Source: Tetragonia tetragonoides (taxonomy: Eukaryota; Streptophyta; Magnoliopsida; Caryophyllales; Aizoaceae). From it: DNA of 64,000 bases. The notes beneath the pieces were generated by a model that ran no database searches, was not told the origin of the DNA, and worked only from the letters and a program-made list of their open reading frames with translations. Position 1 is the stretch's first letter; every line of letters begins with the position of its first letter. Both the position numbers and the translations under genes were made by a program. The stretch spans positions 10,512,001 to 10,576,000 of the forward strand of contig CM076147.1 in assembly GCA_038025085.1 (NCBI GenBank), in the 5' to 3' direction. Below, in pieces: positions 5,896 through 48,193 of the stretch.

Positions 5896-7205
5896 TGTAG
5901 AAGCCAAAAAAGCGTCTTCAGATTTCTCCGCAAAAGCCCGATGATGAAAGGAGTAATTTATAAACTTGAACTGCTATATTTGCTTTAATAGTTAAGATAA
6001 GGTCTCAGGTCTTTCCTCCAAACACTCCTTCATTCCATTTCATTCAAAACCCCCGTTCAAGAGTTTTCCAACGACACGTCTCATGCCTCTTTACGACTCC
6101 CGGTCGCCACGTTGCGATTTAAGAGTAAAACCGTCTTTTACCGTTCAAGGGTAGAACGGTCTTTTCACATTTTTTGGAATATTTAAATTACTCCGGTAAA
6201 TAAAAATGGACTGGATGACGTCATTATGACGACATCGAGCTGGCTGCTAACAGCCGTCAGCGGCCCTGGGATAAGTCCCAGGGCCGCTAGCGGCGCTGAC
6301 AATATTCCCAGGGCCGCTAGTGGCGCTGACCCTGCTTCTGGCCAGACTCTTTTTTCGGCCCAAATCCAAATTTCGGCTTCTTTTCAGCTGTCCAACCCTA
6401 CTTCCTGCGCCTATAAATACGACCATCTACCCTCAGTTCAAAACACACATTCTACAGTTGACAACCTCTATTCTCAGTAGTATTGACTCTGAGCTTCCCT
6501 CTCTTTCTTCCAAACTTGAGATCTTGTTTTACTATTCTTGTCAATTATAGCCTACAGTTCAGGTACAAATTCCTGAGGGCTCAAATTAATTTAACTGCTT
6601 AATTGTTTATTTTCTAGTAGTCATAATGTAGATATCATGCTAGAATAGCATTTTATTGCTTCCTAAATATCGTCTATATAGTCGTTGTGCTTGTCAAACC
6701 GAATGCATGTCTAAATAAGGGTTAATATTAAATGTTGTGATGCATGTGATGAACCAATTAATAGTCTAAGTATAGGTTGCTAATCCGGTTTTGCATGGGA
6801 ATTATGTCTTTAAATTATTAAACAAACTTGACTTAGTAGAGGCCGTCATAATACGGGCAATTTGGGTGCCTAACACCTTCCCACCTCGTACCTTCGCCCC
6901 CGAACCTATTATTTTTGGATACTCATATGTTCCGTATGAGCGGGAGTCTTTCTAAAAACATGATTAGTTCACTTTTCGCGCTATTGGGTTGTCCCTTCGG
7001 TTTGTCCTTTCGATAAAACGTCGATAGCAGATTTGTGACCTCTTTCATGGATTTTATTCAATTCATATCTTTACAAAATCCTTTCTAACTCAATGGTCCC
7101 TTGAACTTATCTAAACCCCCAACTTACAAATTTTCTATAAGGACACACTCTGTGGAAACCAATACTCATATAAAAAGGATTGAAAGAAAATCCCGGGTCC
7201 TTACA
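5896..7205 (+). repeat. Element A 5' LTR
   Basis: Begins TGTAGAAGCC and ends GGGTCCTTACA, 1310 bp, and is matched along its length by 17290-18591. U3 holds an exact bZIP-type palindrome TGACGTCA (6216-6223; mutated in the 3' copy), the GC-rich motif cluster and a TATA box at 6410-6420. The two LTRs differ by scattered substitutions, so the insertion is not very recent. Confidence 0.93.
6241..6420 (+). promoter_or_regulatory. Element A LTR promoter: GC-rich palindrome cluster plus TATA box
   Basis: 6241-6330 contains a perfect 12-bp palindrome GCCGCTAGCGGC (6283-6294), the 17-mer CCGCTAGCGGCGCTGAC, a near copy (CCGCTAGTGGCGCTGAC) and an inverted pair CCCTGGG/CCCAGGG. About 80 bp downstream is CCTATAAATACGA starting at 6410. 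The 17-mer and the TATA block recur upstream of the antisense DUF7745-like gene of the same element. Promoter function is inferred from position and TATA. Confidence 0.75.
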
Positions 7206-7206
7206 T

Positions 7207-7224
7207 TGGCGACTTCACTGGGGA
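7207..7224 (+). other. Element A primer binding site
   Basis: TGGCGACTTCACTGGGGA, one base after the LTR end. Tat/Ogre elements use a primer site of this form, generally assigned to a tRNA-Arg. Element B has the close variant TGGCGATTTCACTGGGAAC. Confidence 0.8.
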
Positions 7225-8167
7225 TTTATTTAAGAGGGTGAGACTCGAAAGTCAAGTTTGCTTAATTGTTTAATAACATGTTCCATATTTTTGCATCATT
7301 TGCATGTGCTTTTGTACAACCTTTTGACGCTTATCGACCCTCGAGGAAGTTTGTGTCGCAACTCGTAGACAACCCGTATATCTAAAGGAATATACAGTTG
7401 TCCTATCGTGCAAATTGACGCTTCCGCACCCATGACTCATCAATCCTTGTTGATGAAAAGAATTACAATCGATGTGTCGACCATCTGTCGAACGGAAATT
7501 GTAATTTGTCATGGTAACCTCACAGGAGCCAAAACCCTCTAGCCCACATTCGTGCATCCGCTTGCTTGTTGTGCATGTGTTGTTGTAATGCCCATCTGAT
7601 CACATGTTTGCCTGTAAACTGCGTTATTATTATGCTTGCATGAATATCGTGATTACGTGCTGGGAGCCTTTTTCTTTTATGTTTAGCTAGTTCCTAATGC
7701 CCGAAGATGGTGCGAGAATTCCAATTCAATGAACACTCATCATTTTCCCAATGATATATTCTAAAAAGTCATTTAGCAATCTTCTAGCATCTTTTTAGTA
7801 AAAAAAAGAGTCAGTCTTTTAGTTTCCCCTCTCCGTTTTTTCCATTTCTTTATTTTCTTTATTTTTATGATGTAATTCAGATTCGGTCAAAAGAAAAAAA
7901 AGAAAATCGAAAATAAAAAAATAGGGAAAAAAAAAACTGAAAAAAGCCGCCGAACAAAAAAAATTTCGAAAAAAAATGTAAAACGACTGAAATTCTTTTA
8001 TTTTATTTTTGTTTTATCCCATTTTCTTTTAGTCTAGAAAAATAAAAATAGGATAGTCCATCTTTTTCTATTTTTTTTTTTATTTTCGTTCATTGACTTT
8101 ATTTTCCTTGGATATTAGGGAAATATTCGGGCATTTAGGCTTAAGGACTGTTTTTTTTTAGGACAAT
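7225..8167. other. Element A 5' leader, no gene recognised
   Basis: A long untranslated leader between primer site and gag remnant. 7800-8160 is made mostly of A-rich and T-rich runs. Nothing coding was recognised; long leaders are usual in this lineage. Confidence 0.55.
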
Positions 8168-9241
8168 GTGTTTCTTCATGTGTGGGTCAACTTTTTCTTA
8201 GATGAGAGTCTCGTGGTCTTTTTGATTCTAAAAGATCTTCTACTCGTTCAGCTCATGCCAGGGTCCCTCAAGCGTTCCACAGCCAAAGATACACAGAACG
8301 AATATCTCCTCATGCCAGGGTCGGAAATGGGCCAGAATGCTAAGAAGACCAAAACTCATTTTGTGACAACTGCATATCCAGTCCGCGAAACTTCAAGAGA
8401 GTCGATACTTGATACTCAAGACGAATCCTTTGATTTGGATGAACAAGTAGACCGATCACTCCGAGAGGCCAAAATCCAAGTAGGCCTTGATCCCGATGAA
8501 ACCCCGCGCCTCATTGAGTACAAAAGCGTAGGCAAGCCAACCCAGGCCATTGTTGAAGCACAAGATGATATTGAGCACCTAACTCAATACATAGTTGTCT
8601 ATCATTCAGAGATCCAAAGGTTACAGAATACGGTCGCTCGGTTAGAACAAAGAATTAAGGCTCTAGAAGTTGACAAAGTTCTTTTCAATCAAGAGCAACC
8701 TCGCTGGCCTCAGGAACACATTTTTCAACAAATGAGGGTATATGACTACATGCAACCAATAGGGCCCACTCATGAACTCAGCCCGGAAAATGGAAACCCA
8801 TGAGTTTACTGTGAGTACTGCCTAGCCTGCGGACGTCACACTAATGACTGCAGGAACCTGTGGGACAAAATCCAAGCTTTCATTAATGAAGGGACTATGT
8901 GGCCCGCGCATCATTGGTTATCCAAGGAAAGATCGAGTATTCTTACCCGTGAGCTCACGCCACTGGCGGTACCTATTCATGATGTTATGAAAGCTTTACA
9001 TCGTCGCGGAGATCTACAATTCCTAGGACCCTACGAAGAAATTTTGCTAGAAGGAGGAGACCCTTATCTTTGTTGCAGATATCATAGATGCTTCGGTCAC
9101 CTCACTGATCAATGCTCTCGCTTAAAGTGTGACATCCAAATGATCGTTAACTTCGGAGCCGTCTCTCCTCCGAAGTCCCACATATTCAGGTTTACAGTGC
9201 ATGTTCATGAGCCGCAGGAAAACCCACACAAGTTGACATAG
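8168..9241 (+). pseudogene. Element A gag remnant with two zinc-knuckle-like motifs
   Basis: ORF 8168-8803 encodes about 211 residues. The usable part from near 8255 has charged residues and a predicted coiled coil (YHSEIQRLQNTVARLEQRIK, near residues 140-170). After a stop, reading continues with EYCLACGRHTNDCRNLWDKI and later CCRYHRCFGHLTDQCSRLKC, both of the form C-x2-C/H-x-GH-x4-C-x2-L seen in the gag of element B (CKFHRGKGHDTVKCWTLKNK). The central capsid-like region with the WFLKLEPNKI-type block of B is missing. The stops make it non-functional as it stands. Assignment to gag rests on position and the knuckles. Confidence 0.6.
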
Positions 9242-9713
9242 GGATTGACCCAAAACGAGTTAACTTGCTTTGCTTCCGAAATTCCCGTGAGGCTTTACCT
9301 TATCCATTTGAAAGATGATGTACAGGAAAAAATAAGATATACCTATAGAGCCTGGAACTAGTTGGTCACCCGCAAGAGATAGAGGAATCGAGTCTGAGTC
9401 CCCAAGTTTTGTCGAGTTAGGGTCTTAGCTAAATCTTTAGGTTGAGTCTGGAACAGGGGGTGTTCCCCTTGTACTTTTCTTTCTAAGTCTAGTTTCTTTT
9501 TGACGGGAATTAGAGACCCTCTTCTCTAAAGTCATGTGTGCTTATCTCTTTTTGCAAATCAATAAAAATTCCGCATGCTCATTTCTTTCCTTGTTTGGCT
9601 ATTGATAAATCCAATGAATAAAAAGTTGCACCAATCATTAACTAATCAATTTAAGCAATGTAAGTAAACTTCGTAAAGCAAGAATGCAGATTTTCACTTT
9701 TACAGGAATTTGA
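9242..9713. other. Element A internal deletion zone
   Basis: Between the gag remnant and the integrase linker no protease, RT, RNase H or aRNase H motif can be read in any frame. In element B the equivalent interval is over 3 kb of pol. AATAAAAA occurs near 9560. The region is best described as the scar of an internal deletion. Confidence 0.6.
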
Positions 9714-11051
9714 GTGGCTGAACTCTCTCAACAATGCCGCTCCACAAAGAAGAAGCGAGCCAGCCTTTTGCAACAACCTCGACACAGAAATGACTTTGGA
9801 GGATCCTTGATACCAAGACATCTTCAACTACATTACCAAAGGAATATACCCTCAAGATGCACCACTAAGAGCTCAACGAGCCATACGTCTCTTAGCGGCG
9901 CAATACATAGAATACAAGGGGGTTCTGTACAAAAAATCCAACAACGGGGTCAACCTCAGATGCGTGAATTCCGAAAAAGCCGCAGAGATTATGGACTAGG
10001 TACACAATGGTGTGTGCGGGCCACAAATGAATGGTCGAATGCTCTCTAGAAAGGTCTTACGGTTGGGATACTACTGGACTACTATGAACAGGGATTGCTA
10101 CGACTATGTCAAGAAGTGCAAGAAGTGTCAGATATATGCCAACCTACAGCATATGCCACCCTCAATGCTTCACAACTTCATATCCCCTTGGCCATTTTCC
10201 GCATGGGGAATAGATATCATTGGTAAGATCATCCCAAAGGGCTCGGGAGGACATGAATACATCCTAGTAGCCATAGACTATTTTACCAAATGGGTCGAAG
10301 CTCAATCCTATGCCGTCCTTACCTTCAAACAAGTGTCAAAATTCATAAGGAACAACATCATTTGCGGTACGGCGTTCCGCATGAAATCATAAGTGACCAT
10401 GGATCCCACTTCAAAGCCGAGACAACCACCCTCCTCAAAAACTACAAAATCCAGCACCAGAAATCATCCCCAAACCGTCCCCAAACCAATGGCGCAGTGG
10501 AAGCTGCCAACAAAAACCTCAAGACTATAATTGAAAAGATGATAGAAAACTACAAAGATTGGCCCATCAAACTCCCATTTGCCCTTTGGGGATATAGGAC
10601 ATCCAGAAGATCCTCTACAGGAGCAATACCTTATTCCCTAATCTATGGAATGGAAGCAATTCTACCCATAGAAGTCCAATTACCCTCCATGCGCATAGCC
10701 TTAGAAGGAGAAATTCCTGAAACCCAATGGTTACAAGCCCGCTACGAAGAGCTCATGTTCACGGATGAAAGACGCCTACGGGCCCTAGACCATTCCCACA
10801 TGTACCAACAGCGCATTGCAAGAGCATTCAACAAAAAGGTTCGACCTCGAAATTTAATGGAAGGGGATTTAGTTTGGAAAGAATTACGTGCCCTAGTTAC
10901 CGATCCCAGAGGCAAATTTTGACCCAACTGGTCCGGCCCATTCATCATCAAAGACATTCTATCAGGAGGTGCAGTCAGGCTCATGGATATTGATGGCATC
11001 GAGTTCAGTCAGCTCACCAATATGGATCAACTAAAGAATTGCTACGTCTAA
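9714..11051 (+). pseudogene. Element A integrase (broken)
   Basis: The reading starts in the linker DIFNYITKGIYPQDAPLRAQ, which aligns with DILNLLAQGDYPPQSTPRAQ of element B. It continues through the zinc-binding region (CYDYVKKCKKCQIYAN), the catalytic core with WGIDIIG (first Asp), SDHGSHF (second Asp) and NGAVEAANKNLK (Glu), then the C-terminal domain ending MDQLKNCYV with TAA at 11049-11051. At least two frameshifts (near 10380 and in the linker) and stops (for example before PNWSGPF at 10922) break it. It lies convergent with the antisense DUF7745-like gene, with less than 300 bp between their ends. Confidence 0.88.
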
Positions 11052-11339
11052 AAAAAAAAAAAAGACGTTCACAACTTGCACGAACTATGCTGGCCTGATT
11101 CCATACTGGATACGTAGGTAATCTTTTTAAGGGGCCCGGCCAATATCAATCCAAAATTCCTTTCAAACTCATGCAAAAGGGATAATCTTTATTCAAACTA
11201 AACGAATAAGCTTACATTGCAAGGTTTAAACTTCCTAAGGTTACAAAAAAATAATAATGCAACTATGAGGGTTTAAGCTAAACAAATTCTTATTATTATT
11301 TTTTTTTCAAAACTAGACTTGCTTTCCTAGAAAACTACT
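11052..11339. other. Convergent intergenic spacer in element A
   Basis: AT-rich spacer between the stop codons of integrase (plus) and the DUF7745-like gene (minus). It presumably holds the 3' ends of both transcripts. No other feature seen. Confidence 0.5.
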
Positions 11340-12685
11340 TTAATCCTTCTTCCCTTTAGAAGGCTTCGTTGAAGAGTTCTTCTTTGAAAGACCTTGGCTT
11401 GAGGACGACCTCGGATCGCTCCCTTGAGCTGAGGGCTTGCCTCTTTTCAGTACATGATAGCCTCCCATTTGAGGCCCTTCCTTTCTTTTCTTGCTTCCTA
11501 TTTTTGAGTCATACTTAGGCTTTAGCTGGTCCCACTCCTCATGACGAAGGGCTCGTCTCGCTTCTCCATCACCGCACGAAAGCCAGTTCAGATAGGTCTC
11601 AGAAACTTGAGTTGGGGCAATTACCCGAGGTACAGTCCAGCGATCCCGGTACGCCAATATTTTCCCCAATCCGTAGCAAACTCAGTGGTCAAAGCTACGA
11701 TAGTTGCTCTCGTAGTTTCCTGACGAGGAATAACCTGTTTCAACCCATATTGCCTCATGTCCCTAGAGGGAAAGAAGAAAGTAGTCCTGTACAAACCCAG
11801 TATGGTAGTATGAGGAACCAAATTGTCACAAGCCACTAAGGTGGTCAAGTTCCACCAAGACACATGCCAGCGGATAACAGGTCCCGCATGGAAAAAGACA
11901 TCCCATTCAGCAAGGGACTTATCAGAATATAGCCTTATCCTAACCAAGAAGCTAGCAGCGGTATAGGTTTTCTTTGACCAAGCCCGAGGAACACGAGCTA
12001 TCATATTATCTGGTGATTCTATTAGCCTCAGATGCTCACATAACCAAATTTGAAGCAGCTGGGGGCTGCTAGAAAAAGCTTCGTGAGGAGAGCTTTTCAG
12101 CCTGTCGAGCCCAATAATAGTTTCCCCTACAACCAGATGCAAAGGAGAATGCCCTTCAACCATTTGACTAACCACTCGCAGCAACGAGGCTCTGCCCAAG
12201 TTAGGAGATTCTGCATTACAAACAATGGGTGGTTCAACAGGCAAAGTACAAAAGCCTGACGGCGACAACGCTTGAATATTGCGTTCTTGTCAAAAGAAAT
12301 AGAAAATTTTTTGCAGAGTTGAACCAAGTCCACATCGACACCAGGAAGCATGCTTTTGGCTTCTGCAGATGACAAACCCAAGGATTTGTTGTACCGATCC
12401 CTAAAACCATCTCACACATAAGGCATAGCTGGGGGAAGAACATCAGGCATATTAGTGATCGCAGCAAATTCTTCAACTAAAGGGCATAATTCAGAGTTAC
12501 CAAAACGGAAAAAAATGCAGGTCAGGGTCCCAATAATTCAGAGCGGATCGAAGAATGGGCCACAATATTTTTGTTGGTCTTAAGGTCAGCAGGGTAGAGA
12601 CATGAAACGGAGCTAGTTCAAGTTTATCTTCTACGGTCAGATTTTTGCACCAGGCATCAAACAGGTTTTCAAAGGATTTCACCAT
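11340..12685 (-). pseudogene. Antisense DUF7745-like gene of element A (broken)
   Basis: Start ATG at 12685 (MVKSFENLFDAWCKNLTVED), stop at 11340. Blocks in order: LELAPFHVSTLL; NYWDPDLHFF (the F/YWDP motif typical of DUF7745 proteins); LGLSSAEAKSMLPGVDVDLV; VVGETIIGLDRLKSSPHEAF; LLQIWLCEHLRLIE; SLAEWDVFFHAGPVIRWHVS; TILGLYRTTFFFPSRDMRQY; and a basic serine-rich tail rich in KK and SK. The same blocks occur in the same order in element B (25965-27486). At least three frameshifts separate them. Unlike B, there is no intron between LLQ and IWL. DUF7745-type proteins are found widely in plants and are often transposon-linked; their biochemical role is unknown. The name rests on motif resemblance, not a search. 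Confidence 0.72.
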
Positions 12686-12756
12686 GATAGAAAATTTGGG
12701 AAATTTGGGACAGCTAAGGTCTAAAAAGTGGCACAACATCAAGTATCCCGTAAATC

Positions 12757-12915
12757 GTATTTATAGGAAAAAACGCGGGCCAAAGAAGTCAAAAATCCAC
12801 AAAAAAAGCCCAAACCAGAGTCGTCAGCGACCCTGGTCAGCGCCGCTAGCGGCTCAAGCGTGCAGCCCAACGCCGCTAGTGGCCCAGCCAGCGCTACTTG
12901 CGGCCCTGACCCTGG
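12757..12915 (-). promoter_or_regulatory. Promoter of the antisense DUF7745-like gene, element A
   Basis: On the minus strand CCTATAAATACGA lies at about 12767-12755, some 70 bp before the ATG, and is identical over 13 bases to the LTR TATA block. Upstream, 12821-12915 carries the perfect palindrome GCCGCTAGCGGC (12842-12853), the 17-mer CCGCTAGCGGCGCTGAC on the minus strand, and near copies. Order and orientation of cluster then TATA match the LTR promoter. Confidence 0.75.
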
Positions 12916-13279
12916 CCCGGTCCGAATTTTCCTCTCGCCCCATGGATCCGGTCTTCCCGATTTAAGCCCAGTTTTGATACCCGCACTGAATTACAAAGCC
13001 TGAGACTCTCTTAGTTTTATATTTTTCAATTTTTTCTTTTTATTTTTTAGGGGGTATAATATATGTAATTTTTTTGCTTTTTCTTGCAGTTTTTACCTTT
13101 TTCCTTTATTTTATTCCCCAAATTATGGCTTTTCCTACTAGATAACACATTCCATACTTAGAGATCTGACGGGCATAATTGAGTCATCATATCATATCAT
13201 ATCATATATATCATAAAAATGCATAAAAACAGCAGTTCAAAATCTCAAGATCAATGTCTACAAGGAGATCCAACATCGC
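12916..13279. other. Spacer between the two antisense genes of element A
   Basis: No ORF recognised. It contains a short ATCAT repeat run near 13185-13205 and T-rich sequence. It is upstream of the DUF7745-like gene and downstream of the PMD gene on the minus strand. Confidence 0.5.
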
Positions 13280-15880
13280 TCAGCTAGAGTCGTCATCACC
13301 GTTTCTGTCAGCCTCATCATCAACGGACAGCCCCTGACCGTAGTTCCCAGCCGAATAGTGGAGAAAAGAGCTATAAATGGGCCTGTTGTTTTCGGGCCTC
13401 ATGTCACGCCCATCATATGCTGGTGCACGCATAGGGGTACCTGCCGGAAACCCCGCGGCAAAGAAACTCTCTGTGGCCTGACTGGCGAAATCCATAGCCA
13501 TATCCTTATGCGAAGGCCCAGTATGAGGCACATCCCATCCAGGGGCATTCGCCCAACCTCCGACTGTGGGGGTAACAATGGGCCTGCATCAAGGGAAGGC
13601 TGGAAACCCACAGGGGAGAACATCTCCGGAATGTACGGCACAGAAGGTCGGGGCGCCTCATCAACAAGAGGCCTGGTCACAGCTACGGGAGGTGAACGAG
13701 CAATAGATGGTCTGCTCGCCGAAGAGGCCCTCGCAGCAGAAGAATGTCGAGGCCCCTTTGAAGACGAGGACTGGGACATCTGCAAACAATCAAGATCGAG
13801 ATGTTAAGTTAAGCACTTCACTTAGCTAAACAAAGGATAAAAGTATACTTACATCAACGGTCCGAGACCGAGAACTCTTCCCCTTGCCCATTACTCGACC
13901 ATAGCCTTTCTTCAGCAGGTGGATGAGCTTGAAGATCTGAGAGGTCTGCTCCCGATTCAACTACAAAAAGAGAGCCACAAGATAGAGTCAGCAATCAAAA
14001 GCAAACACAAACGCAAGAAGGGATAAAAAGGAGCTCACCCCTGTACAACCATCAGGCAAGGGCAAACCATCCACATCCTCTCCATCAGCCATATGAAGAG
14101 GGAACTCCTCTACTATACGTCCCCCACTCTCCCCAATGTACCTAACCTCATTGGTCGGCAAGGTCACGCTTGGGGGCTGACCCCGAGGAACTCTAGCATG
14201 AGAACTCCTAGGACCCTGAGGAGCTAGACGATCCGCCTGCAAGACACAAGAAGTCAGTATATCACACATACAGCTAAAAAGATGCAGAAGAGTTTCTTAC
14301 CTCAGAAGTAGGCCAGGTACACGGCCGTGCGTTCCAAGCCGACAACCCCCGGCATAAGAAACTCCGTGGCCGCCATACCACGGATCACGACTCCCAAGTC
14401 CCGCACACTCAGACCACACAGATAGAACATGGTCAAAGGAGGATCCTCCGGAACCAGGTGACTACCCCGGGAGGGATAGACCAGCCGAGCAAACGGTCCC
14501 CCAAGTACCATACAAAGCGAAATGGCCACTCAAAACCCGCAGAGAAGACACTCTGAAGTACTCCGGGGTAATATGGGGTGGAAGCCCAGGGATACCATCA
14601 AAAGTAGACCATGACACCTGCAGGTTACCAGTTCAAAAGTTCATTCACACCAAATGGACCAACAAGAAAAATGCACAAGTCAACAACAACATACCATAGC
14701 TGCGGCATGGCTATCGAAGGCGGCCCGAAAATGCTCCAGAGAGGTAAATGAGTGGTTATCCCTACCAATCCACCGTGAACCTAATGGGAACATCCTCAAA
14801 CCAGGACGGTGATGACCGAAAGTCGGAAAATACTCAAAGAACCACAGCTGCCATAGAAGCAAGAAAATAAGCTACAAGCCTAAAAGTAAGCACGTGCAAA
14901 GAAAAAAAAAACAAATGGGCCTACCTCTAGTATCCTCCATGGGCCCGAGATAGATGTCTTCTCACTCGTCTCCTTAGGTCTACAAGCCCGACGACACCAT
15001 CTCACCAAGGAAGCATAAGCGGAAGCACCGAGGTTGTACTCATGGACCTTGGACAAATCCTCCAGACATGTCAAGAAACCGACTTGACATACAATCTTCT
15101 TCTGAGCAAAGATGGTAGAACCCAACAAGCAAGCTAGAAAAATACGGGCTCTCTGCTCTTCAGTAAGCCCCTGCTCCGCCAGAGCCGCCCACAACCGCGC
15201 CAAAGAAACCCGATCCTTATCAAAGTGGACAGACACGGGCCCGTAACGCTCAAGCAAACTGTCACTCAGTCGCCAATAGTTTGCGTCGTACCGAATACGA
15301 CACCCTCTAAAGGATAGCCCCGTCAGCACAACAAACTGATAAGGGGTGGGGAGCATCTCTCCTATAGGTGTATGGAAAGTTCCTAACACCCACTGAAAAG
15401 GTCTCCAGCATCATAGCCCAATGGGACGTAGCCCCATGAGCCTGCAACAAGACACCAACACCGTAGCCAACAAACAAATTTTCCTCAACACCCCATATAC
15501 TACAAATACAGCTAAAATAATTCCACACAAATTATATGCAGCTAACCACCAATCCAGCACAAGTCCCAATTTGTTCGTGTGCTGAAGCACTAACAGTTCC
15601 AGTTTTCAGTTCAAATATACTGAACAGAAAAAAGGGGGAAAGTCAGAAAACATACCAGCTCCAAGTTAGACAGATGACTCTGCCTATCCGGTAGTAGAAC
15701 ACTGCGGTTCCAAACCCCAGCCGGGCACCAGTCCAGCCACATGAAAGAATCCTGGTACAACCGAGCTCCATCTGCGTGACTAGTCGGAGGTGCTGTAGTA
15801 GAAGGTAACCCGGTGCGGAAAAGGCTCCGGTCATAGTCCTCCTCACTCATGGGACATTTTCCCTTATCCACGGGAGCCAT
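13280..15880 (-). pseudogene. Antisense plant-mobile-domain (PMD) gene of element A, multi-exon, broken
   Basis: Start ATG at 15880 (MAPVDKGKCPMSEEDYDRSL). Exon 1 ends near 15656 at a GTATG donor. The next coding block carries the PMD hallmark TFHTPIGEMLPTPYQFVVLT followed by GLSFRGCRIRYD, then ARIFLACLLGSTIFAQKKIV and VHEYNLGASAYASLVRWCRR. Later blocks: WQLWFFEYFPTFGHHRPGLR, YLCGLSVRDLGVVIRGMAAT, DGEDVDGLPLPDGCTG, and a proline- and serine-rich C terminus ending GDDDSS at 13280. Exon order and borders parallel the PMD gene of element B. Frameshifts, for example in the last exon, make it non-functional. PMD (Aminotransferase-like, plant mobile domain) also forms the core of Arabidopsis MAIN and MAIL1, linked to transposon silencing and genome stability. 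Confidence 0.75.
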
Positions 15881-16175
15881 GGGAGCACAATGAAGCTTTC
15901 TCTCTCTACAAGTGGGAAAATAAAAGTTTCAGATTCGCAAGAAACAGACACCCATTCAACAATGCAACCCAAAATTCAACAATTAGGCGGAAAAATAAGC
16001 AAGTTCAAGACGAAAACCGAAGAAATCGGTCAAGAATCGACTTACCTCAAGCAAAGTGGAGCACTCAACAATGGAGGAAGCTCGAAAATTTTGCTCTCGA
16101 CAATGAAGCTCGGTGAGGAAGAAGAATGCACGCGAAAAAAAAAAGGAAGCGCCGAAGCGCTTTTTACTCGGCTCC

Positions 16176-16250
16176 ACGGTGCTGGCCAGAGCCGCTAGCG
16201 GCTTTTATCAAAGGCCTAGCGGCGCTGGCCTGGGCTGCTAGCGGCCTTGC
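16176..16250 (-). promoter_or_regulatory. GC-rich palindrome cluster upstream of the PMD gene, element A
   Basis: Contains the perfect 12-mer GCCGCTAGCGGC (16191-16202), plus CTAGCGGCGCTGGCC and GCTGCTAGCGGCC, about 310-370 bp upstream of the ATG at 15880. The same 12-mer is in the LTR promoter and upstream of the DUF7745-like gene. No clear TATA box is seen between the cluster and ATG. Confidence 0.65.
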
Positions 16251-16568
16251 AGACATGCACACGCGGGCCCACTTGCTGTCCCACGGCCCCTTTTTCCAGT
16301 CCAAAGTTCGGTACTTCAGTTCGTTTGCGACGAATAACAGTACCAAGTGCGGGAGCAAAGTACTCCGGCCCACAAATTCAAATTCGACAGTTGGCCCATT
16401 TTACGATACCAATTATTTTCAGGTAAAACTAACCCGTTTATTTTTGCAGGTCCTAGATACTGAAACTCGGATCTACACTGCGACAACCCTTACCGCCCAG
16501 AGTGCCAAAATTATTTTTAAAGCTTGGAAATTCTATCGGCCTTACAGCTCAGTATTACAAACTTCGAG

Positions 16569-16870
16569 CCAGTCAATGATCGCTTAAGATATTGCGGTTA
16601 AACTGTCCTTCTGCGAAATTACAAATTTTGGGGTCAGTCAATGGTCGCTTAAGCTATTGTGGTTAAACTGTCCCTCTGCGAGGTTACAAATTTTAGGGTC
16701 AGTCAATAGTCGCTTAAGCTATTGCGGTTAAACTGTCCCTCTACGAGGTTGCTTATTATGTGTCAGTCAATGATTGCTTAAACTATTGCGGTTATACTGT
16801 CCATTATTTTTTTATATGTGTATCAGTCAATGATTGCTTAAGCTATTGCATTTAAACTGTTCATATGTCC
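16569..16870. repeat. Element A 3' tandem repeat, five units of 60-65 bp
   Basis: Units begin CAGTCAATGG or variants at about 16569, 16634, 16699, 16763 and 16823 and share GCTTAAGCTATTGCGG then TTAAACTGTCC. Tandem repeats just before the 3' LTR are well known in Tat/Ogre-type elements and can seed satellite DNA. Confidence 0.9.
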
Positions 16871-37784: not shown

Positions 37785-37797
37785 CTACAAGTAGACA

Positions 37798-39528
37798 ATC
37801 AAACAATGAGAACATTATAAATCACAAGCAAAGTGATTTCAAATAATTCCTATCTTCTCGGACTGCTATGCTCAACGGCTTTAAATTATATTTTATTTTC
37901 GCCAAAATGAAACTAATCTTTATTAATTCATTAATTAATCATAAGCAACCTTTTTAAACCTAGGGCTCTGATACCATTTGTAACACCCCCGAATTTGCAA
38001 CGATTTCCTGGGAACTATCGACGTCGTTGTGCACGACTCGACACCGTTGAATGGTCCCGAACTCGAGGGGATGTCACTGCAACATTTATCACTAAGGAAT
38101 AAATACTAACCGGAAAGAAAGACTTGCATAAAAAGGAGCTTACTAAGGAACTAAACAAACTAAACAGTTAATATCAGAGTTGTCTATATAGTGAGCTAAA
38201 AACCATTAAACCAAATTTATTACAACTTGCCTTCAAAGGGCTAAATCCAATAAAAATCCCAACGATCTAAACTGAACAGAAACAGTTCTAAAAACCGATG
38301 CCAACTCTACCTTCCAAGCTGTACGTCCTCAATCAACTAAACCTGCACTTTGGTTTCCATGATGGAAACAAAATACAGAAGAAAGGAAAAGAAACAAAAG
38401 AGAAACAAAAATAAGATAAACTGAATAAACGTCATCAATTAAATGAGAGTAAGACTCCTAATGGATCCCTAGGAGTAGTCGAGCAATGGGGATTGCACCT
38501 AATGGTGTAGTTCAAGGGATGAGTGATTCTCAAGTTACTTATGGACACCTCGCATTGTGTCTGGGACGGATCATTCCCCATTTATTTAGTCCTCTAGGCT
38601 CGTGTAATTGTACTACAGGTAGTGTGAACACTAGAGTCATTAAATCCATGGCGTGATTGTATCTTCGATGAATAGTATGGGTAATCGCTGTTCTATTCGC
38701 TCTCTTACATCTCTCTAATCAAGACGGATTGTCTATGTCGTATTTCGTGTGATCACTATAGAAGAATTGCATATGAAAGAATGTCGTTGTGCGTATGCTT
38801 GATTATATGCTTATATGCGTATGCTAATGATTTCAATGATTCTTCTAAAACCTCAGGTAAGGTTTGCGAAATATTTTTACTGGGTACGGATGATGTTTAT
38901 TCAGTTTATCTGATTTTGGTTTCTCTTTTGTTTCTTTTCTTTTGTTCTGTATTTTGTTTCCGTCATGGAAACCAAAGTGCAGGTTTAGTTGATTGAGGAC
39001 GTACAGCTTGGAAGGTAGAGTTGGCATCGATTTTTAGAACTGTTTCTGTTCAGTTTAGATCGTTGGGATTTTTATTGGATTTAGCCCTTTGAAGGCAAGT
39101 TGTAATAAATTTGGTTTAATGGTTTTTAGCTCACTATATAGACAACTCTGATATTAACTGTTTAGTTTGTTTAGTTCCTTAGTAAGCTCCTTTTTATGCC
39201 TAGTCTTTCTTTCCGGTTAGTATTTATTCCTTAGTGATAAATGTTGCAGTGACATCCCCTCGAGTTCGGGACCGTTCAACGGTGTCGAGTCGTGCACAAC
39301 GACGTCGATAGTTCCCAGGAAATCGTTGCGAATTCGGGGGTGTTACAAATGGTATCAGAGCCCTAGGTTTAAAAAGGTTGCTTATGATTAATTAATGAAT
39401 TAATAAAGATTAGTTTCATTTTGGCGAAAATAAAATATAATTTAAAGCCGTTGAGCATAGCAGTCCGAGAAGATAGGAATTATTTGAAATCACTTTGCTT
39501 GTGATTTATAATGTTCTCATTGTTTGAT
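37798..39528. repeat. Large palindrome in element C made of LTR end, primer site and leader
   Basis: The left arm 37798-38436 (leader, primer site, U5 end of the LTR, minus orientation) and the right arm 38889-39528 (the same in plus orientation) are inverted copies of about 640 bp with few differences. Between them 38437-38888 is more LTR sequence in plus orientation, equivalent to 29147-29588 reversed. A second primer site lies at 39350-39361. The right arm stops at TGTTTGAT exactly where an extra U5 end begins. Confidence 0.92.
37965..37976 (-). other. Element C primer binding site
   Basis: Minus strand TGGTATCAGAGC, two bases after the LTR end GGGGGTGTTACA (37979). tRNA-iMet type. Confidence 0.9.
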
Positions 39529-39585
39529 CGTGCACAACGACGTCGATAGTTCCCAGGAAATCGTTGCGAATTCGGGGGTGTTACA
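39529..39585 (+). repeat. Extra U5 terminus forming the right end of element C
   Basis: 57 bp, CGTGCACAACG to GGGGTGTTACA, matching 39291-39347 and sharing with it the variant GCGAATTC where the left arm has the equivalent of GCAAATTC. It directly abuts the GAACG target duplication, so this terminus was the one joined to the chromosome. Confidence 0.9.
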
Positions 39586-39590
39586 GAACG

Positions 39591-42500
39591 AGCTTCAACC
39601 CATTTGGTAAAATAATCTATCGCGACTAGTATGTATTCATGGCCTCCTTTTCTTGTAGGGGTGATTTTCCCAATGATGTCAATACCCCATGCAGAGAACG
39701 GCCATGGTGAAGTGAATGTATGCAGAGGAGTAGGAGGCCTATGTTGTAAATTGGCGTGGAATTTGCAGTGTGTGCACTTCCTCACGTATTCGATGCAGTC
39801 CTTTTTCATCGTAGTCGAATAGTATCCTTGCCTTAGAATCTTCTTGACTAAGGTGAGTCCATTCATATGGGGACCACATACACCATTATGTATGTCGCTC
39901 ATGGCTTTGATGGCCTCACGTTCCTTTAACCATAGAAGACTTAGCCCTTATGGTGTCTGTTTATAAAGTTTGCCTTGCACATGTATGTATTGTGCGGCTA
40001 CTCTTCTTAAAGCTCTTTGTGCCCTAGGTGTGGATTGTGGAGGGTAATCACCTTGGGCGAGTAAATTAAGGATGTCGGTAAACCATTCCTCTTCTTCCTC
40101 CTCATTGGCGCATATTTCGAGTGCATTACAAAATGGGGGCTCAGTGCGCCTTTGAATGTGAATGGGCATGGAGATTACATCATCTGGAATATTTATCATG
40201 GAGGCCATTTTTGCTAAGGTATCCGCGAATTGGTTGTCATCTCTAGGAAGGTATGTAAAACGAACGTGAGTGAAATATTTGGCTATCTTTTCAAGATATT
40301 CCTGGTAAGGTGCCAGGGATTCGCTTTACAATCTCCACTTTTTGGAGACTTGGTTTATGATGAGAGTTGAATCTCCATATACCTTTAGATCCTTAATTTG
40401 TAGTTCTCTTTCCGCTTCTAAACCAATGATGCATGCTTCATACTCGGCGCCGTTGTTGGTTACCTCATGGTCTAGTTTGACTGCTATGGGAGTATGTGCG
40501 CCTTCTGGGCTGACTAATAATACTCCTACGCCTTAACCTTTTTGGTTTGATGCTCCGTCAAAGTATAACTGCCGAGTGGTTTCTTCGACACTCATTATTC
40601 CTTCATCGGGAAAGTCATGTGTAGCATCTTCGCTATTAACTGGGTTCTCAGGGAGATGTTCAGAAATGGCATGTCCTTTGGTTGCCTTTTGGTGTTCAAA
40701 AGTTTGATCGAATTCTGAAAGCATGACAGTCCATCTTGCTATTCTTCCACTAAGAATGGGTTTTTCGAACTAGTACTTTAGTGGATTCATCCTTGACTTT
40801 ATATGGATAGAATGTTGTAGCATGTAGTGTCGAAGTTTCTTTGTTGCAGTGACCAATGCGAGACACGTTTTCTCTAGTGTGGAGTAGCGTGTTTCGTACT
40901 CTAAGAATTTCTTGCTAAGGTAGTATATTGCCTTTTCATCATTCTCCACCGTTTGGGCCAATATAGCACCCATGGCGGTTTCTGTGACTGTTAGGTATAA
41001 CATAAGTGGCTTTCCCGCAATTGGTGGAACCAATACGGGTGGATTAGCTAAGTAATCTTTGATCTTGTCGAAGTCCTGCTGGCATTTATCATCCCAGGTA
41101 GATTTGGTGTCCTTTTTGAGCTTTTTGAAGATGGGCTCGCATGTAATAGTCAATTTGGATGTGAATCGACTTATATATTGGAGCCGTCCTAACCTCTTAT
41201 CTCCTTTTCATTTTTGGGAGATGGCAAATCTCTTATAGCTTTGATTTTGGTACGATCAATTTCATTGCCTCTTGTGCTTATGACGAATCCTAAAGGCTTG
41301 CTAGAAGTCACTCCAAATGCGCACGTTTGAGGATTTAATCTCATATTGTAGTTCCGAAGCCTGTCAAAGAATTTCTTTAGAGAGGGTATGTATATGCCCT
41401 TCTCTCTCCTTGGATTTGATGATCATATCGTCTACGTAAACCTCAGCTTCCTTGTGCATCATGTCATGTAGAAGTAAAGTCGCGGTTCTTTGGTATGTCG
41501 CTCCCGTATTCTTCAACCCGAAAGGCATAACGGTATATCAATACGTTCCCCATTGGGTTATGAAGGTTGTTTTCTCCATATCTTCTTCGGACATTTGTAT
41601 TTGGTTATACCCTGCATAGCCATCCATGAATGATAAGAGGGCATGTCCTGCGGTATTGTCCACCAGTACGTCTATATGTGGCAAGGAAAAGTCGTCCTTT
41701 GGACTTGCCGTGTTTAAATCTCTAAAATCGACGCACATCCTTACTTACCCGTCCTTTTTTGGAACGGGCACTATATAAGCGATCCATTCTGGATATTGAG
41801 CGACCTTAATAAAACCTGCGACCAGTTGTTTCTGTACCTCTTCTTTGATTGTTAGTGTCCACTCAGGTTTCATTCTCCGAAGTTTTTGCTTTACCGGTTT
41901 TGAATCAGGATTGAGCGGTGTTGTATGTTGTGCTATCTTACGACTTATTCCTGGCATATTTTTATAGGACCAAGCGAAAACATTTATGTATTCTTTTAAG
42001 AGATTTATAAAGTTTTCTCGCTCTTTGGGAGTTAACGATAAGCTAATGCGCACTTGACGCGATTCTTGATCGCTTGCAAGATTGATTAAGTTTGTTTCTT
42101 CCACAATTGGAGTCTTTTGTTTATGCTCTAATAGTTCTTTAGTTACTTTGGGCAATTCTTGTTCATCTTTTGAATTATCATCTTTTGAATCAGCAATCAT
42201 TTCATTGATTGAGGAAACTGGAACATCAACTGACCCATTACTATTGGCTTTAACATCATTAGACTTGCAAAATGAATTAAACATCGATTTGGGTGGACCC
42301 CCTGACTCTACTATATCAGACTCGTCTTCAGAATTAGACTCAGTCCGATCGGAGTCAGTGTCAGTATCAAGCTTGGATTCTTCAGAGATCGTGATCTTGA
42401 TCTTCTTTCCATTGGCTCCTCTCCAACTTATGGTGCGTTTCTGCTTTGTGAGTTGACCCTCATTTGGAGTGATCAACTTAATTGGGTCAAAGTTCGCATC

Positions 42501-43730: not shown

Positions 43731-45500
43731 CTATTTAAGTAGTGTAGTGGCATCATCCTCGTTTGGAGGGTTTTGGTCGTTGTTTTGGACTAGTGGAGAG
43801 TCTCTCACTTGTGGTATGACTGAAGCTGTGTTTTGTAATGGATCCTTGTTCTGAAGATGGGGTGATATGCAATGCCTTCCCGACCTTGTGAGGTGTTTGA
43901 CTTCAGGAGATCCATCATCAGAAGAGTCATGACATGCTTTAGAAATTTGGAGGGTAGCATCTTCCTCGTCGCTATATCTTTCCCAAAGTCTGGCTACCTC
44001 TAGGTGGAGGGAGTCAAGCTTAAGTGGTGGGATAGGATATCCAATTGGCACAATCAGGCGAGAGGGGTCCTTTTCTTCCTCTTCATTTGTAATGACGAAA
44101 ACCGCACCTGGAGGATTGGTGTTGTTGTTTGGAGTGGGAACATTCTTTGGCTTGGGAATAGTCCCATTGTCAAAAAGATCCTGGATTTTATTCTTGAGTG
44201 TCCAACACTTCACGGTGTCATGTCCTTTTCCTCTATGGAATTTGCAATAAAGATTAGGGTTCCATGATGGGCTCCTCTTTTCAACGTCAGGATCTGGAGT
44301 GGGACCCATGACATTAAGATAGCCATTCTTGACAAGCTTTTCCAAGGCTTTAGCATCGGTCATACCCAATGGGGTGTATTGCCTTTGCGATTTGTCGTAG
44401 ACAGCATTGACTTCATTAATCTTGTTGGAAGAGCCTCCCGAATAGGGATTCTTCTTGTAGTTCGAGTTCTAAGTGCCTTTGTTGAAGAAGTCCGTGCTTT
44501 TCTCCTTTTTGAGTGCTTGATCGTCCTCTATGAGCAATCCCACACTATTGAGTTGTGTGTATGAAGTAATTGCTTGATATTTGAGAGGATTCAAGTAAGG
44601 AGGTTGTAAATTCTTGATGAGTTTCCGAATTTTCTCTTCCTCGGATGGACGGTCGAGCATTTCGGTCAGTTTAGTTCTCCATTTCTTAACAAAGTCAGTG
44701 AAGCTTTCATTTTCAGGTTACTTTATTGCTTCCAACTCTCTCATGGTAGTTGGTTGGATGACGTTGTTAGCGTACCTAGTGAGGAATAAGTTAGACACTT
44801 TGTTCCACTCCTGAATCTTATTGGGCTCAAGCTTCAAAAACCATGCCCTAACAGTGGGGTCCAAGGTTTGTGTGAAAAGGTGAATATAGGGGTCAGGATC
44901 CACTCCTCTTAGGCCCATCGCAGTGGTGAAAGCCCTTATGTGATCTTTTGGATCATCGGTCCCTTTGAAGGTGGGGACTTCAGGCATAGAGAACTTTTGT
45001 GGGAGCTTCCCCTTGATATGAGAGGAATATCCTTCAGCATTGATCATATAGTCACTTATGATCTTGTTTTGAGTTAGAGCTAACTCAAGGTTCTTAATTT
45101 GAGCGCTTAGCTCTTCTAGTTTGTCATCTCGAGGTGGAGGATCATCTTGGTTGAAAGGGTCAGCTTCCTTAACCTTACTTTCTATCCATGTCACACGGTT
45201 CCTCATGGTTTCTAACATTTTCATCATTTTAGCCAACATCTCATCAGTAGTCTTAGGTGGTGGAGGTGGCATGTCATCTTCGGCCATTTTGGTCGACTTA
45301 GAACAGGATGGTGGATATGGAGGGGGAGTAACAAACACTGCGTCAAACATAGCTTTGTTCGGAGGGGGAGATTCCAATACGAGCTTCCTAACCAAACGTT
45401 GATTACTATGATCGCGTTCCCAACTTTTCGGACCGACTGTTTTCTTCCCAATCCTGGACAGCGGATAAGACTTAGAAAAGGAAAGACTAACAAGTTCCAT
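43731..45500 (-). pseudogene. Element B gag
   Basis: ATG at 45500 (MELVSLSFSKSYPLSRIGKK). Order: proline-rich segment (MPPPPPKTTDEMLAKMMKML), coiled coil (DKLEELSAQIKNLELALTQN), capsid domain (FSMPEVPTFKGTDDPKDHIR, then LDPTVRAWFLKLEPNKIQEW, then LFLTRYANN), TEMLDRPSEEEKIRKLIKNL, and the knuckle CKFHRGKGHDTVKCWTLKNK near 44230. In-frame stops after LEAIK (about 44718), after NKGT (about 44469) and after TTLLK (43731). It is the full-length counterpart of the remnant in element A. Confidence 0.9.
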
Positions 45501-46658
45501 AAAGGAAAAGTTTTAAAACAAAGATGGGAAATTTCTATCTAGAATATTCTATCAACATAGTTACCCTTGGGGACTAAGTAATGGTTTAGGTCAAAAGATC
45601 TCGACACAGGAAAAGAAAGATAAAAGATATTATACTAATGACTAAAAAGAGACGAGAGAGATATTATCTCGACTCAATATGGGATAAAGCAAAAGATATT
45701 ATACTCTTGACTAAAAGGAGAGGGGAAAGATATTATCTCGACTCAGTATGGGATAAAGCAAAAGATATTATACTCTTGACTAAAAGGAGAGGGGAGAGAT
45801 ATTATCTCGACTCAATATGGGATAAAGCAAACGATATTATACTCTTGACTAAAAAAAGAGAGGAGAGATATTATCTCGACTCAATATGGGATAAAGCAAA
45901 AGATATTATACTCTTGACTAAAAGGGGAGGGGAGAGATATTATCTCGATCTTTTGGCCTACACTCACTACCTAAATAAAAGGAAAGAATAAAGCATTCAA
46001 ATCTTTCCTAAGATAACGAGCATCATATACAACATTCAGGGAGATTGTTTCCTAAAAATAAAGATTGTAGACTCAATCTTAAGACAAAATCTAGACTCAA
46101 AAAAGGAAAAGATCCTAATTGGGGTCTAACCTAATATTCTATGACGACCAAAACACTACGCAAAGATTGCGCTAACATATGGGCAGATAGCATAACAACG
46201 CAAATGACATGATTATGAAAATCTAGCATGGACATGGGACTGAATTTCCACCTAAAGCATTGGTTCTAGTTCATGCAATGGGGTAGGCTTAAGGGTTTTG
46301 GTCAAAAGGTACTCATGATCAAGAATATACTACAATCCGCGGGATGCGCGACAATGTGAGGTATTCTAGTTATCCTACTCGTTGAATGGACGAATGCGTA
46401 GGAAGGTACATGAGGTGGGGGATCCATGTTTCTTGGCAAAGAAGAATCAAGTGGATTCTCACCAAGGCACTTCATCACACTCCATTGGCTAAAAACTAGT
46501 TTGCACTTGTAAAAACAAGCTCGGAAGTCGCGCAAGCGCATGCACATGAATGCAATGAATGCAACAAGTCACAAAATAATAATAAGAACACTCAAGGTAG
46601 TGAACCAAGCAAAAATAATGACAATGAATCGATTTTCAAGTTACACCCTCTTAATCAT
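45501..46658. other. Element B 5' leader
   Basis: Long leader between primer site and gag. Apart from the tandem array at 45640-45950, nothing is recognised. Confidence 0.6.
45640..45950. repeat. Leader tandem repeat, 69-bp unit, about 4.5 copies
   Basis: Units share GATATTATCTCGACTCAATA, TGGGATAAAGCAAAAGATAT and TATACTCTTGACTAAAA. Because 69 is a multiple of three and no unit carries a stop in one plus-strand frame, it produces an apparent repeat protein (period 23 residues, RYYLDSIWDKAKDIILLTK). That frame is antisense to the element. Confidence 0.92.
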
Positions 46659-46677
46659 GTTCCCAGTGAAATCGCCA
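46659..46677 (-). other. Element B primer binding site
   Basis: Minus strand TGGCGATTTCACTGGGAAC, one base after the LTR end (46679). It is a variant of the element A site TGGCGACTTCACTGGGGA. Confidence 0.8.
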
Positions 46678-46678
46678 C

Positions 46679-48193
46679 TGTAGGCTACCTGATTTTTCTC
46701 CCCTTTTTCCTTCGGATTTCCAGGCAGCTTGGGAGAGCGCGGTCGTTTGGGTTTTCATGAACCTTTGAGTGTGAATGCACATCAAGACTTTAGGACATGA
46801 TTAAGATTGTCGGAAGTCGCCACCAAATTTAAGGTAATTTGGAAACCTTGGAATCAAATCGATAGTCTACAAAGACGTCAACTCAATTCCTGTGCACCCC
46901 AATCCCTATTGGGGAAATTGACTTCATAAATGAGTCCGGGGGCGTGAGTACGAGCTAGGAAGGTGTTAGGCACCCAACTCGCCCGTTGACAACAACGACC
47001 TTTACTAATCGATTCAATATAATTATTAATGCTACGGTTCCAAACAAGGTTCAACTTGTCCAAATTCCTAGTTTTAACTAATGGGTTGAACAAACATTAT
47101 TATTGTGACCACTTTTAACAATTGATCAAATTACATGCTTTTATTGCTAAAAACGATAAATAGGCTAAAAACTGCAAGTTAGAAGACAAATCAAGAATTC
47201 ATCCACCAATCCACAAACAAAGCGCAATTTAATCATAAGAAGCAATAAATAACAAAATTAAAACATTCATTCATCCATTAAGTACGCTTAATACAAGCCC
47301 CTTTGCTCAAAACGCGTCATGCATGTACATATCACATAAACCAAAATCGTTAGTAATAACAAGCAATATAAAGATTTATTGAAAACCCTCAGGTTTGATT
47401 ACCTGGATGCTCACAATGAACTTATTGGGTTATAATGCTTGAATTCATGCTCTTGATGAAGTGTGAAGGTTTACTTTGTGGTGCTATGGCTAACACTAAA
47501 GAACGAGTAGAATCAGAATTTCTGGTTTTATATGAGAGAGAGATAGAATTTCCAACCTCTCAAATTCCTAACCTAAAGGCCAACCTGAGAGAGAAACTGC
47601 CAACCTCTTCAACTGAACCCTAAGGTTTGTTTATATAGCAGAGGGGGCGCTGCCAGGGTTTCGCACAGAAATCGAGATGGGCCTCAAATTCGCCGTCTGC
47701 GAGAAAAGGTCCAGACGTCCATACAGCTAGGCCAAGCGACCAAGCTGGCAGGACAAGCGGTCAAGCCGCTTGGCCTAGCGGCATAGCCGCTTATCCTAGC
47801 GGTCGTCGCTTGAGCCAAAGTGTGGCCGCTTGGACCTGCAGCGGTGTGCCTTTATAGGCGCCGCACGTGCTTTTCACGCGGGGGAGACTTTTCCGAGGGG
47901 GTCCACGCGGGATTGTCTGAGTTCCCTTGTTTGACCAAGGGTTGACTCATGGGTTTGGGTTCCCTTTCGGACCCTTAGGTTCAAAGAGGCCTATCTCTCA
48001 GCTTTGGACTCCAATTGAATTGAATCCAACTGATTTGGATCACCTGTACAAAAGGCTTCCACTGGTTAATTCAAATAAACTGGGCTAATTATCAGAGCAA
48101 TTATTCTCGCAACCCAAGTTCGAGGAAAATCCAATCCTTTCATCATCGAGTTTTTACGGGGTTTTATCATAGACACAATTTTTGGTGTCTACA
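46679..48193 (-). repeat. Element B 5' LTR with promoter cluster
   Basis: On the plus strand TGTAGGCTACC to GGTGTCTACA, 1515 bp. The promoter in minus orientation has the GC-rich cluster at 47725-47850, including AGCGGCATAGCCGCT (47777-47791), then a TATA box CTATATAAAC at about 47637-47628. A variant of the 16-mer (GGCGCCTATAAAGG on the minus strand) adjoins the cluster. It is followed by the ACACC duplication. Confidence 0.93.

Follow-up and report, generated by a model that had tools for sequence, protein, structure and literature searches.

The window analyzed here, a stretch of 64,000 nt of Tetragonia tetragonoides DNA, contains two LTR retrotransposons, referred to as elements A and B. 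Element A lies at 5896-18591 on the forward strand and element B at 19148-48193 on the reverse strand, with ends fixed by target site duplications of ACTGT and GGTGT, respectively. The LTRs, delimited by pairing and by these duplications, are at 5896-7205 (5') and 17290-18591 (3') on the forward strand in A, and at 46679-48193 (5') and 19148-20706 (3') on the reverse strand in B. The two LTRs of A are 93% identical, differing at 84 of 1302 aligned positions, and those of B differ at 116 of 1499. With diverged LTR pairs and broken reading frames, both elements are decayed and old. As in the Ogre/Tat group, LTRs and target site duplications are accompanied by a Ty3-gypsy-type integrase, with Integrase_H2C2 above cut-off in both A (10000-10389) and B (39483-39947). 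The dual RNase H used to recognize that group was found only in B, where RT_RNaseH_2 (40773-41207) and RVT_3 (39951-40325) each exceed the cut-off, and was absent from the four A sense ORFs scanned. Pfam gave no RVT_1 match among the A or B ORFs scanned.

Both elements carry two antisense genes of the PMD superfamily between pol and the 3' LTR. The antisense PMD genes, whose extents are approximate, occupy 13283-15880 on the reverse strand in A (ATG at 15880, several frames) and 22127-25154 on the forward strand in B (ATG at 22127, with a proline-rich ORF at 24681-25154). One ORF in each passed the gathering cut-off of 34.9 bits for PMD (PF10536): 14883-15410 in A (48.4 bits, 1e-12) and 22957-23622 in B (66 bits, 4.5e-18). 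These ORFs are about 30% identical. The second pair, which we call DUF7745-like, lies at 11343-12685 on the reverse strand in A (ATG at 12685) and 25965-27483 on the forward strand in B (ATG at 25965); both genes are frameshifted and end in a lysine-rich tail. Because they are broken, their scores come from fragments rather than whole proteins, and the DUF7745 (PF24924) cut-off was not reached: the B fragment 26111-26632 scored 17.3 bits against a cut-off of 26 (0.0027). The B gene also matched PMD at 1e-4, below the curated cut-off, and A ORF 11624-12289 matched PMD instead (3.9e-6, 26.7 bits against 34.9). By eye, the start of the B PMD protein and both DUF7745-like tails are rich in lysine and arginine.

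The B PMD ORF (22957-23622) matched DUF1985 at 6.8e-5 and 23.3 bits, below the Pfam cut-off of 35.1, and Pfam gave no such match for the A PMD ORF, so one of the two PMD ORFs matched. None of the antisense ORFs scanned matched a known DNA-binding domain in Pfam. A protein database search with the A DUF7745-like and B PMD queries returned no match at 1e-3; one PDB sequence search gave no match at 0.1 and another gave three, at E 0.52 or worse. An AlphaFold2 model of B PMD, built from two sequences, had a mean pLDDT of 34.6, too low for use. Viral contigs were scanned with B PMD, an A/B integrase alignment, B DUF7745-like, A PMD and B RNase H. One of these scans confirmed a single stretch as a relative. 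One viral-contig locus matched over 55 residues and was dropped as a candidate relative; since its ORFs are tailed-phage-like and it had no tblastx hit in the window at 1e-5, we take the match as chance.

The hexamer AGCGGC is unusually clustered at this locus, ranking first for clustering among the 1860 canonical hexamers tested in the window. At least two other copies lie within 100 bp of 23 of its 30 copies, and 26 of the 30 fall inside eight promoter regions that total 4199 of 64000 bp, although we note that these regions, bounded by LTR, TATA-like box and ATG (with round limits for the A 3' LTR and B 5' LTR), were drawn once the clusters were already known. Compared with each region's own dinucleotide shuffles, AGCGGC was enriched in seven of eight (P <= 0.0105) and was not above shuffles in the A 3' LTR region (one copy, P = 0.27). 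Equal density of the motif elsewhere, which an earlier note on this DNA had named as counting against its own proposal of element-specific promoter motifs, was not seen in this window: overlapping GC-rich 100-bp windows (>= 0.56) contained no hexamer in 238 cases outside the regions, compared with 1.8 on average in the 125 cases inside. Within the GC-rich clusters, the number of half-sites (at most one mismatch) did not exceed shuffles in any of the four A regions (P 0.087-0.394) or in the B 3' LTR (0.098). For A and the B 3' LTR, the above-shuffle signal in these clusters is the arrangement of half-sites and not their bare number.

In element A, the half-sites form a dyad in which GCCGCT directly abuts AGCGGC with no loop, and such dyads exceeded shuffles in three of four A regions (P 0.006-0.009). 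The U3 array of the 5' LTR (6240-6345, forward strand) contains the palindrome GCCGCTAGCGGC at 6253, 6283 and 6313, with two, zero and one mismatches. Upstream of the antisense DUF7745-like gene (12815-12930, reverse strand), the 12-mer occurs at 12842 (exact) and 12872 (one mismatch), and upstream of the antisense PMD gene (16170-16260, reverse strand) at 16191 (exact) and 16234 (one mismatch). The earlier note had reported the exact copies at 6283, 12842 and 16191, and the window holds no others. Its placement of the motif in the A LTR is correct for the 5' copy, but the array of the 3' LTR is degraded, with 12-mers carrying two mismatches at 17647 and 17699.

Element B uses the same half-site in a different geometry, AGCGGC-N3-GCCGCT repeated at 21 bp. 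All four B promoter regions show a lattice of half-sites spaced at 10, 11 and 21 bp, with 8-28 lattice pairs per region against shuffle means of 0.45-0.75 (P = 0.001 in 4/4), and a search of the full 64 kb found windows with at least five lattice pairs only there. The arrays lie in the U3 of the 5' LTR (47720-47850) and 3' LTR (20210-20370), both on the reverse strand, and on the forward strand upstream of the antisense PMD gene (21610-21845, consecutive units of AGCGG-N5-CCGCT-N6) and of the DUF7745-like gene (25660-25800). Clusters had been claimed for these four places and are present in each, but exact arms occur only at 25749 and 47777, the remaining B sites having one or two mismatches.

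In this window, each geometry is confined to the promoters of its own element. At up to two mismatches, all nine A-type 12-mers in the window fall within A's four promoter regions and all 11 B-type sites within B's four. No A-type site was found in B, nor a B-type site in A, at this stringency; at three mismatches, the 12-mer becomes unspecific, with 24 sites, some in B and some outside. Same-strand promoter similarity was also higher within elements (z >= 4.6) than between them (z <= 3.5), a comparison that rests on two elements, although one opposite-strand between-element pair reached z = 5.3, above the lowest within-element value of 4.6, and the A LTR and A DUF7745-like promoters, once masked, gave z = 4.0, about the between-element maximum of 3.9. 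These results uphold the claim that the motif is common within an element and different between elements, with the refinement that the half-site is common to both and the dyad geometry differs.

The analysis went beyond the earlier note in the target site duplications, the 21-bp lattice of B and the spacing of TATA-like boxes. In the A 5' LTR, the box CCTATAAATA (6410-6419, forward strand) lies about 86 bp past the last A-type site, and the same box appears as CCTATAAATACGA (12755-12767, reverse strand) about 75 bp past the A DUF7745-like array. In B, boxes were found in the 3' LTR (CTATATTAA, at about 20132), the 5' LTR (CTATATAAA, at about 47638) and the DUF7745-like promoter (CTATATA, 25870-25876, forward strand, about 85 bp past the array). 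Distances were taken from coordinates, counting the final 12-mer as the array end in A and the final 21-bp unit still in phase as the array end in B, and were about 75-96 bp in all five of these LTR and DUF7745-like promoters. Arrays at this distance ahead of a TATA-like box sit where an upstream activator site would lie. Around either PMD array, no TATA-like box was found in the 300-320 bp searched, a span that ends short of the ATG.

We interpret each element as a small, self-contained regulon in which one regulator would serve the LTR and both antisense genes, and may be the element's own PMD-superfamily protein; judging from sequence, we give this reading a probability of about one half. 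One dimeric DNA-binding regulator per element would read the AGCGGC arrays, in their element-specific arrangement, at the LTR U3 and ahead of the two antisense genes. In B, this regulator would probably assemble cooperatively, with two helical turns per 21-bp unit. Such a protein would place gag-pol under joint control with the two antisense genes. Less certain is the identity of the regulator: it may be the antisense PMD or DUF7745-like protein, the PMD-family protein being the leading candidate, and may serve the LTR as an activator or an anti-silencing factor, with feedback on its own genes.

Parts of this arrangement resemble known systems, described here from available excerpts of the cited papers. 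VANDALs, MULE-type DNA transposons of Arabidopsis, encode VANC proteins whose short target motif is dense in non-coding regions, often as tandem repeats, and differs between related elements (PMC5735166, PMC10398659). A and B likewise have dense, family-specific motif arrays in non-coding regions, and VANC proteins carry DUF1985 (PMC5735166), the domain weakly matched by the B PMD ORF. The VANC precedent suggested in the earlier note therefore gains a weak sequence link through B but none through A. However, VANDALs are DNA transposons whereas A and B are LTR retrotransposons, so the candidate proteins are not VANDAL-encoded; arrays of the VANC21 motif YAGTATTAY run in a single orientation, unlike the inverted dyads of A and B; and binding and methylation loss are demonstrated for VANC, while the A/B circuit is a proposal from sequence.

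Among retrotransposons, Ogre/Tat elements are similar in their additional PMD genes, which are antisense in A and B, and in the dual RNase H of B. PMD was found in 57% of Ogre elements in one survey (PMC6317226), clades PMD-A1/A2 are confined to Gypsy elements, and Ogre-type PMD genes share ancestry with the host silencing genes MAIN and MAIL1 (PMC5418596). A motif common to LTR and antisense promoters, as found in A and B, is not mentioned for Ogre/Tat in the excerpts of these two papers, and among the matches listed, no precedent for it appeared in the open-access literature. Retand also has antisense ORFs, but these encode TRP28, with tandem arrays near the 3' LTR; a regulatory DNA-binding role is suggested, and the excerpt proposes no target motif (PMC11963269). 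The host PMD proteins MAIN and MAIL1 are required for expression of genes bearing a short promoter motif (PMC7156037, PMC9899485), which also ties PMD proteins to a promoter motif. They differ in acting on host genes, and direct binding is unproven there too. No exact copy of CATGCAGTTT, the DOWN sequence given for MORC1, occurs in the window.

Possible, if somewhat doubtful, is that the elements exploit a host transcription factor, or two from one host family, whose sites make up the arrays, while the antisense proteins do something else. A host factor family is plausible because AGCGGC is the same in both elements and geometry alone differs; a half-site shared despite PMD ORFs only about 30% identical is what one host family would give. 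Plant retrotransposons with LTR U3 repeats bound by host factors are well known, including Tnt1 and ONSEN, and the plant LBD and ERF factors prefer GCGGC/GCCGCC-like cores. Against this, the two elements sit in one genome and yet arrange the dyad differently in their three promoters, which argues for element-specific readers. At up to two mismatches, neither arrangement occurs in the other element, and AGCGGC is absent from the window's other GC-rich DNA.

A variant compatible with our interpretation, which we consider rather improbable, is the same circuit with opposite sign, in which the antisense protein would be an autorepressor limiting transcription and copy number. For comparison, HBZ of HTLV-1 counters Tax at the 21-bp repeats of its LTR. 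Arrays also precede the candidate regulator's own genes, the usual layout for autoregulation, and B has a second box, GCGCCTATA, ahead of the array in its two LTRs and its DUF7745-like promoter, so transcription from that box would run into the array. However, the sole box found in the A 5' LTR lies downstream of the array, in the activator position, and the link between PMD and VANC points toward anti-silencing.

Less likely still, the pattern could have arisen with no dedicated regulator, by copying of a promoter module between LTR and antisense gene and growth of tandem repeats by slippage. The B LTR U3 aligns with the B DUF7745-like promoter over about 180 bp at 66% identity in the same transcriptional direction; TCAGGCGCCTATACAGG of that promoter is identical in the 3' LTR copy and not in the 5' copy; and Tandem Repeats Finder detected 20-21-bp arrays in three of four B regions. 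The second half-site carried 1.04 bits against 0.82 and 0.62 for the spacers over 15 B units, which were picked from 32 extrapolated units for beginning with an AGCGG-like half-site, but in the eight units outside the PMD array, it was conserved no better than the spacers (1.01 vs 0.98 and 0.96 bits). In contrast, all five pairs involving a PMD promoter and another promoter of its element have half-sites alone in common (z of -0.8 to 0.3 after masking). Promoters of one element are mostly unrelated beyond their half-sites, the exception being the B LTR and DUF7745-like pair. Slippage by itself would not explain why one pattern of alternating half-sites recurs across three otherwise unlike promoters, or why the three promoters of A have one palindrome in common. 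Action of the palindromes as RNA hairpins is very improbable: inverted repeats do occur in transcribed strands, but the A dyad has no loop, the B phasing fits DNA turns, the arrays sit before TATA-like boxes, and Rfam at gathering threshold found no family in 5800-48300.

Returning to the element-encoded regulon, a more specific version is offered tentatively, as less likely than not: a putative self-encoded anti-silencing or activation circuit, in which the antisense PMD protein would be a distant VANC relative and would bind element-specific, helically phased dyad arrays in the LTR and in the promoters of its own gene and its partner gene. Each family would then activate itself alone, geometry and protein diverging together. 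With a target sequence named in three promoters, the role of PMD in the element becomes a simple binding and reporter test. If the circuit is real, sequence-specific anti-silencing would extend beyond DNA transposons to LTR retrotransposons, which form a major part of plant genomes.

The hexamer AGCGGC/GCCGCT, here called the half-site, was concentrated in the promoters of two long Ty3-gypsy elements in the window: element A (5896–18591, plus strand; LTR pair 93% identical; duplication ACTGT) and element B (19148–48193, minus strand; LTR pair 90% identical; duplication GGTGT). It occurred 30 times and was more clustered than any other of the 1860 canonical hexamers that had six or more copies and three or more different bases. 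Eight promoter regions were set by structure, without motif positions yet after the clusters were known: LTR regions ran from the LTR start to the TATA-like box (round limits for the A 3' and B 5' LTRs), and antisense-gene regions comprised 500 bp upstream of each ATG. These regions cover 4199 of 64,000 bp and hold 26 of the 30 copies (the others lie at 1926, 9736, 9894, and 24522), confirming the earlier note's claim that the LTR and both antisense promoters of each element share a motif. Counts exceeded the region's own dinucleotide shuffles in seven of eight regions (P ≤ 0.0105), the exception being the A 3' LTR (P = 0.27). Nor was the motif equally dense elsewhere in the 64 kb, as 238 overlapping, equally GC-rich windows contained no copy of the hexamer.

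The form of the motif differed between elements, as the earlier note had observed. The A 12-mer GCCGCTAGCGGC occurred at six sites in all 64 kb with up to one mismatch, two each in the A 5' LTR, DUF7745-like, and PMD promoters; two mismatches gave nine sites, the extra three within A's LTRs, and three mismatches were unspecific (24 sites, partly in B and outside). AGCGGC-N3-GCCGCT had 2, 7, and 11 sites in the 64 kb at up to 0, 1, and 2 mismatches, every one in B's four regions. Neither form occurred in the other element at up to two mismatches.

Half-sites AGCGG and CCGCT (up to one mismatch) alternate in B at 10 and 11 bp, a period of 21. Lattice pairs numbered 10 (3' LTR), 28 (PMD), 8 (DUF7745-like), and 11 (5' LTR) versus shuffle means of 0.45–0.75 (P = 0.001 in each region, the minimum attainable with 1000 shuffles), and across the whole window, 150-bp windows with at least five pairs were confined to these regions. 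Tandem Repeats Finder reported a period of 20–21 in B's PMD, DUF7745-like, and 5' LTR arrays and none in its 3' LTR. A's regions had one or two lattice pairs each (P 0.105–0.354), and their bare half-site number was not above composition (P 0.087–0.394). The A form, CCGCT abutting AGCGG, occurred twice in each of three A regions (P 0.006–0.009), once in the A 3' LTR (P = 0.085), and 0, 1, 0, and 0 times in B's regions. Since each 21-bp repeat spans two turns of B-DNA, half-sites of one orientation would share a face, which suggests cooperative dimers in B. Within-unit conservation was equivocal: among 15 in-phase units, selected from 32 extrapolated by an AGCGG-like start, the second half-site carried 1.04 bits versus 0.82 and 0.62 in spacers, and in the eight units outside the PMD array it was not above them (1.01 versus 0.98 and 0.96).

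Five promoters (A 5' LTR, both B LTRs, and both DUF7745-like) have a TATA-like box about 75–96 bp downstream of the array, distances measured by hand from a somewhat arbitrary array end. The box CCTATAAATACGA is common to the A 5' LTR and A DUF7745-like promoter, the latter with ATATAAAA upstream. Upstream of the array, at 20360–20374 and 47848–47861 in the B LTRs and at 25659–25670 in the B DUF7745-like promoter, stands another TATA-like box, GCGCCTATA, which resembles A's downstream box. PMD arrays lie about 280–345 bp upstream of the PMD ATGs, with no TATA-like box in the 300–320 bp scanned around them.

Seven promoter regions (A 3' LTR left out) were aligned in 21 pairs. Same-strand z was 4.6–10.2 for A pairs (n = 3), 10.4–30.4 for B pairs except LTR–LTR (n = 5), and −0.5 to 3.5 between elements (n = 12); in opposite-strand alignment, a single between-element pair scored as high as 5.3. 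Masking half-sites abolished likeness in the five within-element pairs with a PMD promoter (z −0.8 to 0.3), so the PMD promoters have just the binding-site-like half-sites in common. Because the B 3' LTR–DUF7745-like pair stayed at z 11.3 after masking (5' LTR pair, 1.7), the promoters of the B LTR and the B DUF7745-like gene probably share a common origin. The A LTR–DUF7745-like pair weakly kept its likeness (z 4.0, near the between-element maximum of 3.9).

Both elements carry two opposite-strand genes between pol and the 3' LTR. PMD ORFs lie at 14883–15410 in A and 22957–23622 in B (48.4 and 66 bits, cut-off 34.9), each opposite to its element; the DUF7745-like genes, a label taken over from the earlier note, matched DUF7745 and PMD weakly, always below cut-off. 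PMD genes start at 15880 (A) and 22127 (B), both proteins opening with MAP, and DUF7745-like genes at 12685 (A) and 25965 (B), with similar MV..F....FDAW-like openings. Frameshifts or stops break both copies; by eye, DUF7745-like tails appear lysine-rich and PMD tails proline-rich. Element B has two RNase H domains, resembling the Tat family as described in the excerpted text of PMC9289625. Further tandem arrays occupy the same relative place in both elements, between the 3' LTR and PMD promoter array, with differing units (A 16570–16864, 65 bp; B 20872–21401, 56/86 bp). A nested gypsy element (28688–39585) splits B's integrase region; it retains gag, protease, RT, RNase H, integrase, and Tf2-1 SH3 pieces, a 938-aa stop-free stretch, and inverted LTR pieces (37795–39531). 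A 69-bp tandem repeat (45622–45948; 4.7 copies, 93%) adjoins B's gag-like ORF (44721–45512), and LINE-type remnants lie on the minus strand at 48265–61573 (RVT_1, zf-RVT, and weak endonuclease-like and DUF4283 matches).

The three promoters probably answer to a common regulator, and we put the probability that some factor reads the array at about 0.8–0.85. A host factor reading both elements' arrays would account equally well for the half-site common to A and B; element-specific readers are favored because array geometry differs between A and B within one nucleus. The host PMD proteins MAIN and MAIL1 are tied, in the available text of PMC7156037 and PMC9899485, to a promoter motif of different sequence, CATGCAGTTT, with 0 copies in the window.

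Among element-encoded readers, the antisense proteins are candidates. A 2019 survey of Ogre elements by Neumann et al. found PMD in 57% of them (PMC6317226, in part). In the portion of PMC5418596 consulted, Ikeda et al. (2017) describe PMD-A1/A2 clades confined to Gypsy elements and speculate that MULE-captured PMDs are used for anti-silencing. The anti-silencing VANC proteins of VANDAL transposons contain DUF1985 and DUF287; the motif arrays bound by one of them, VANC21, are dense and specific to the family (PMC5735166, excerpted text). Residues 47–162 of the B PMD ORF match DUF1985 weakly (6.8e-5; 23.3 bits, below the 35.1 cut-off), and the A PMD ORF had no DUF1985 match. With two elements compared, a putative element-encoded regulator is the leading case, at roughly even odds. 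If it is element-encoded, the self-encoded, motif-specific control known from VANDAL, a DNA transposon, would here have moved to an LTR retrotransposon.
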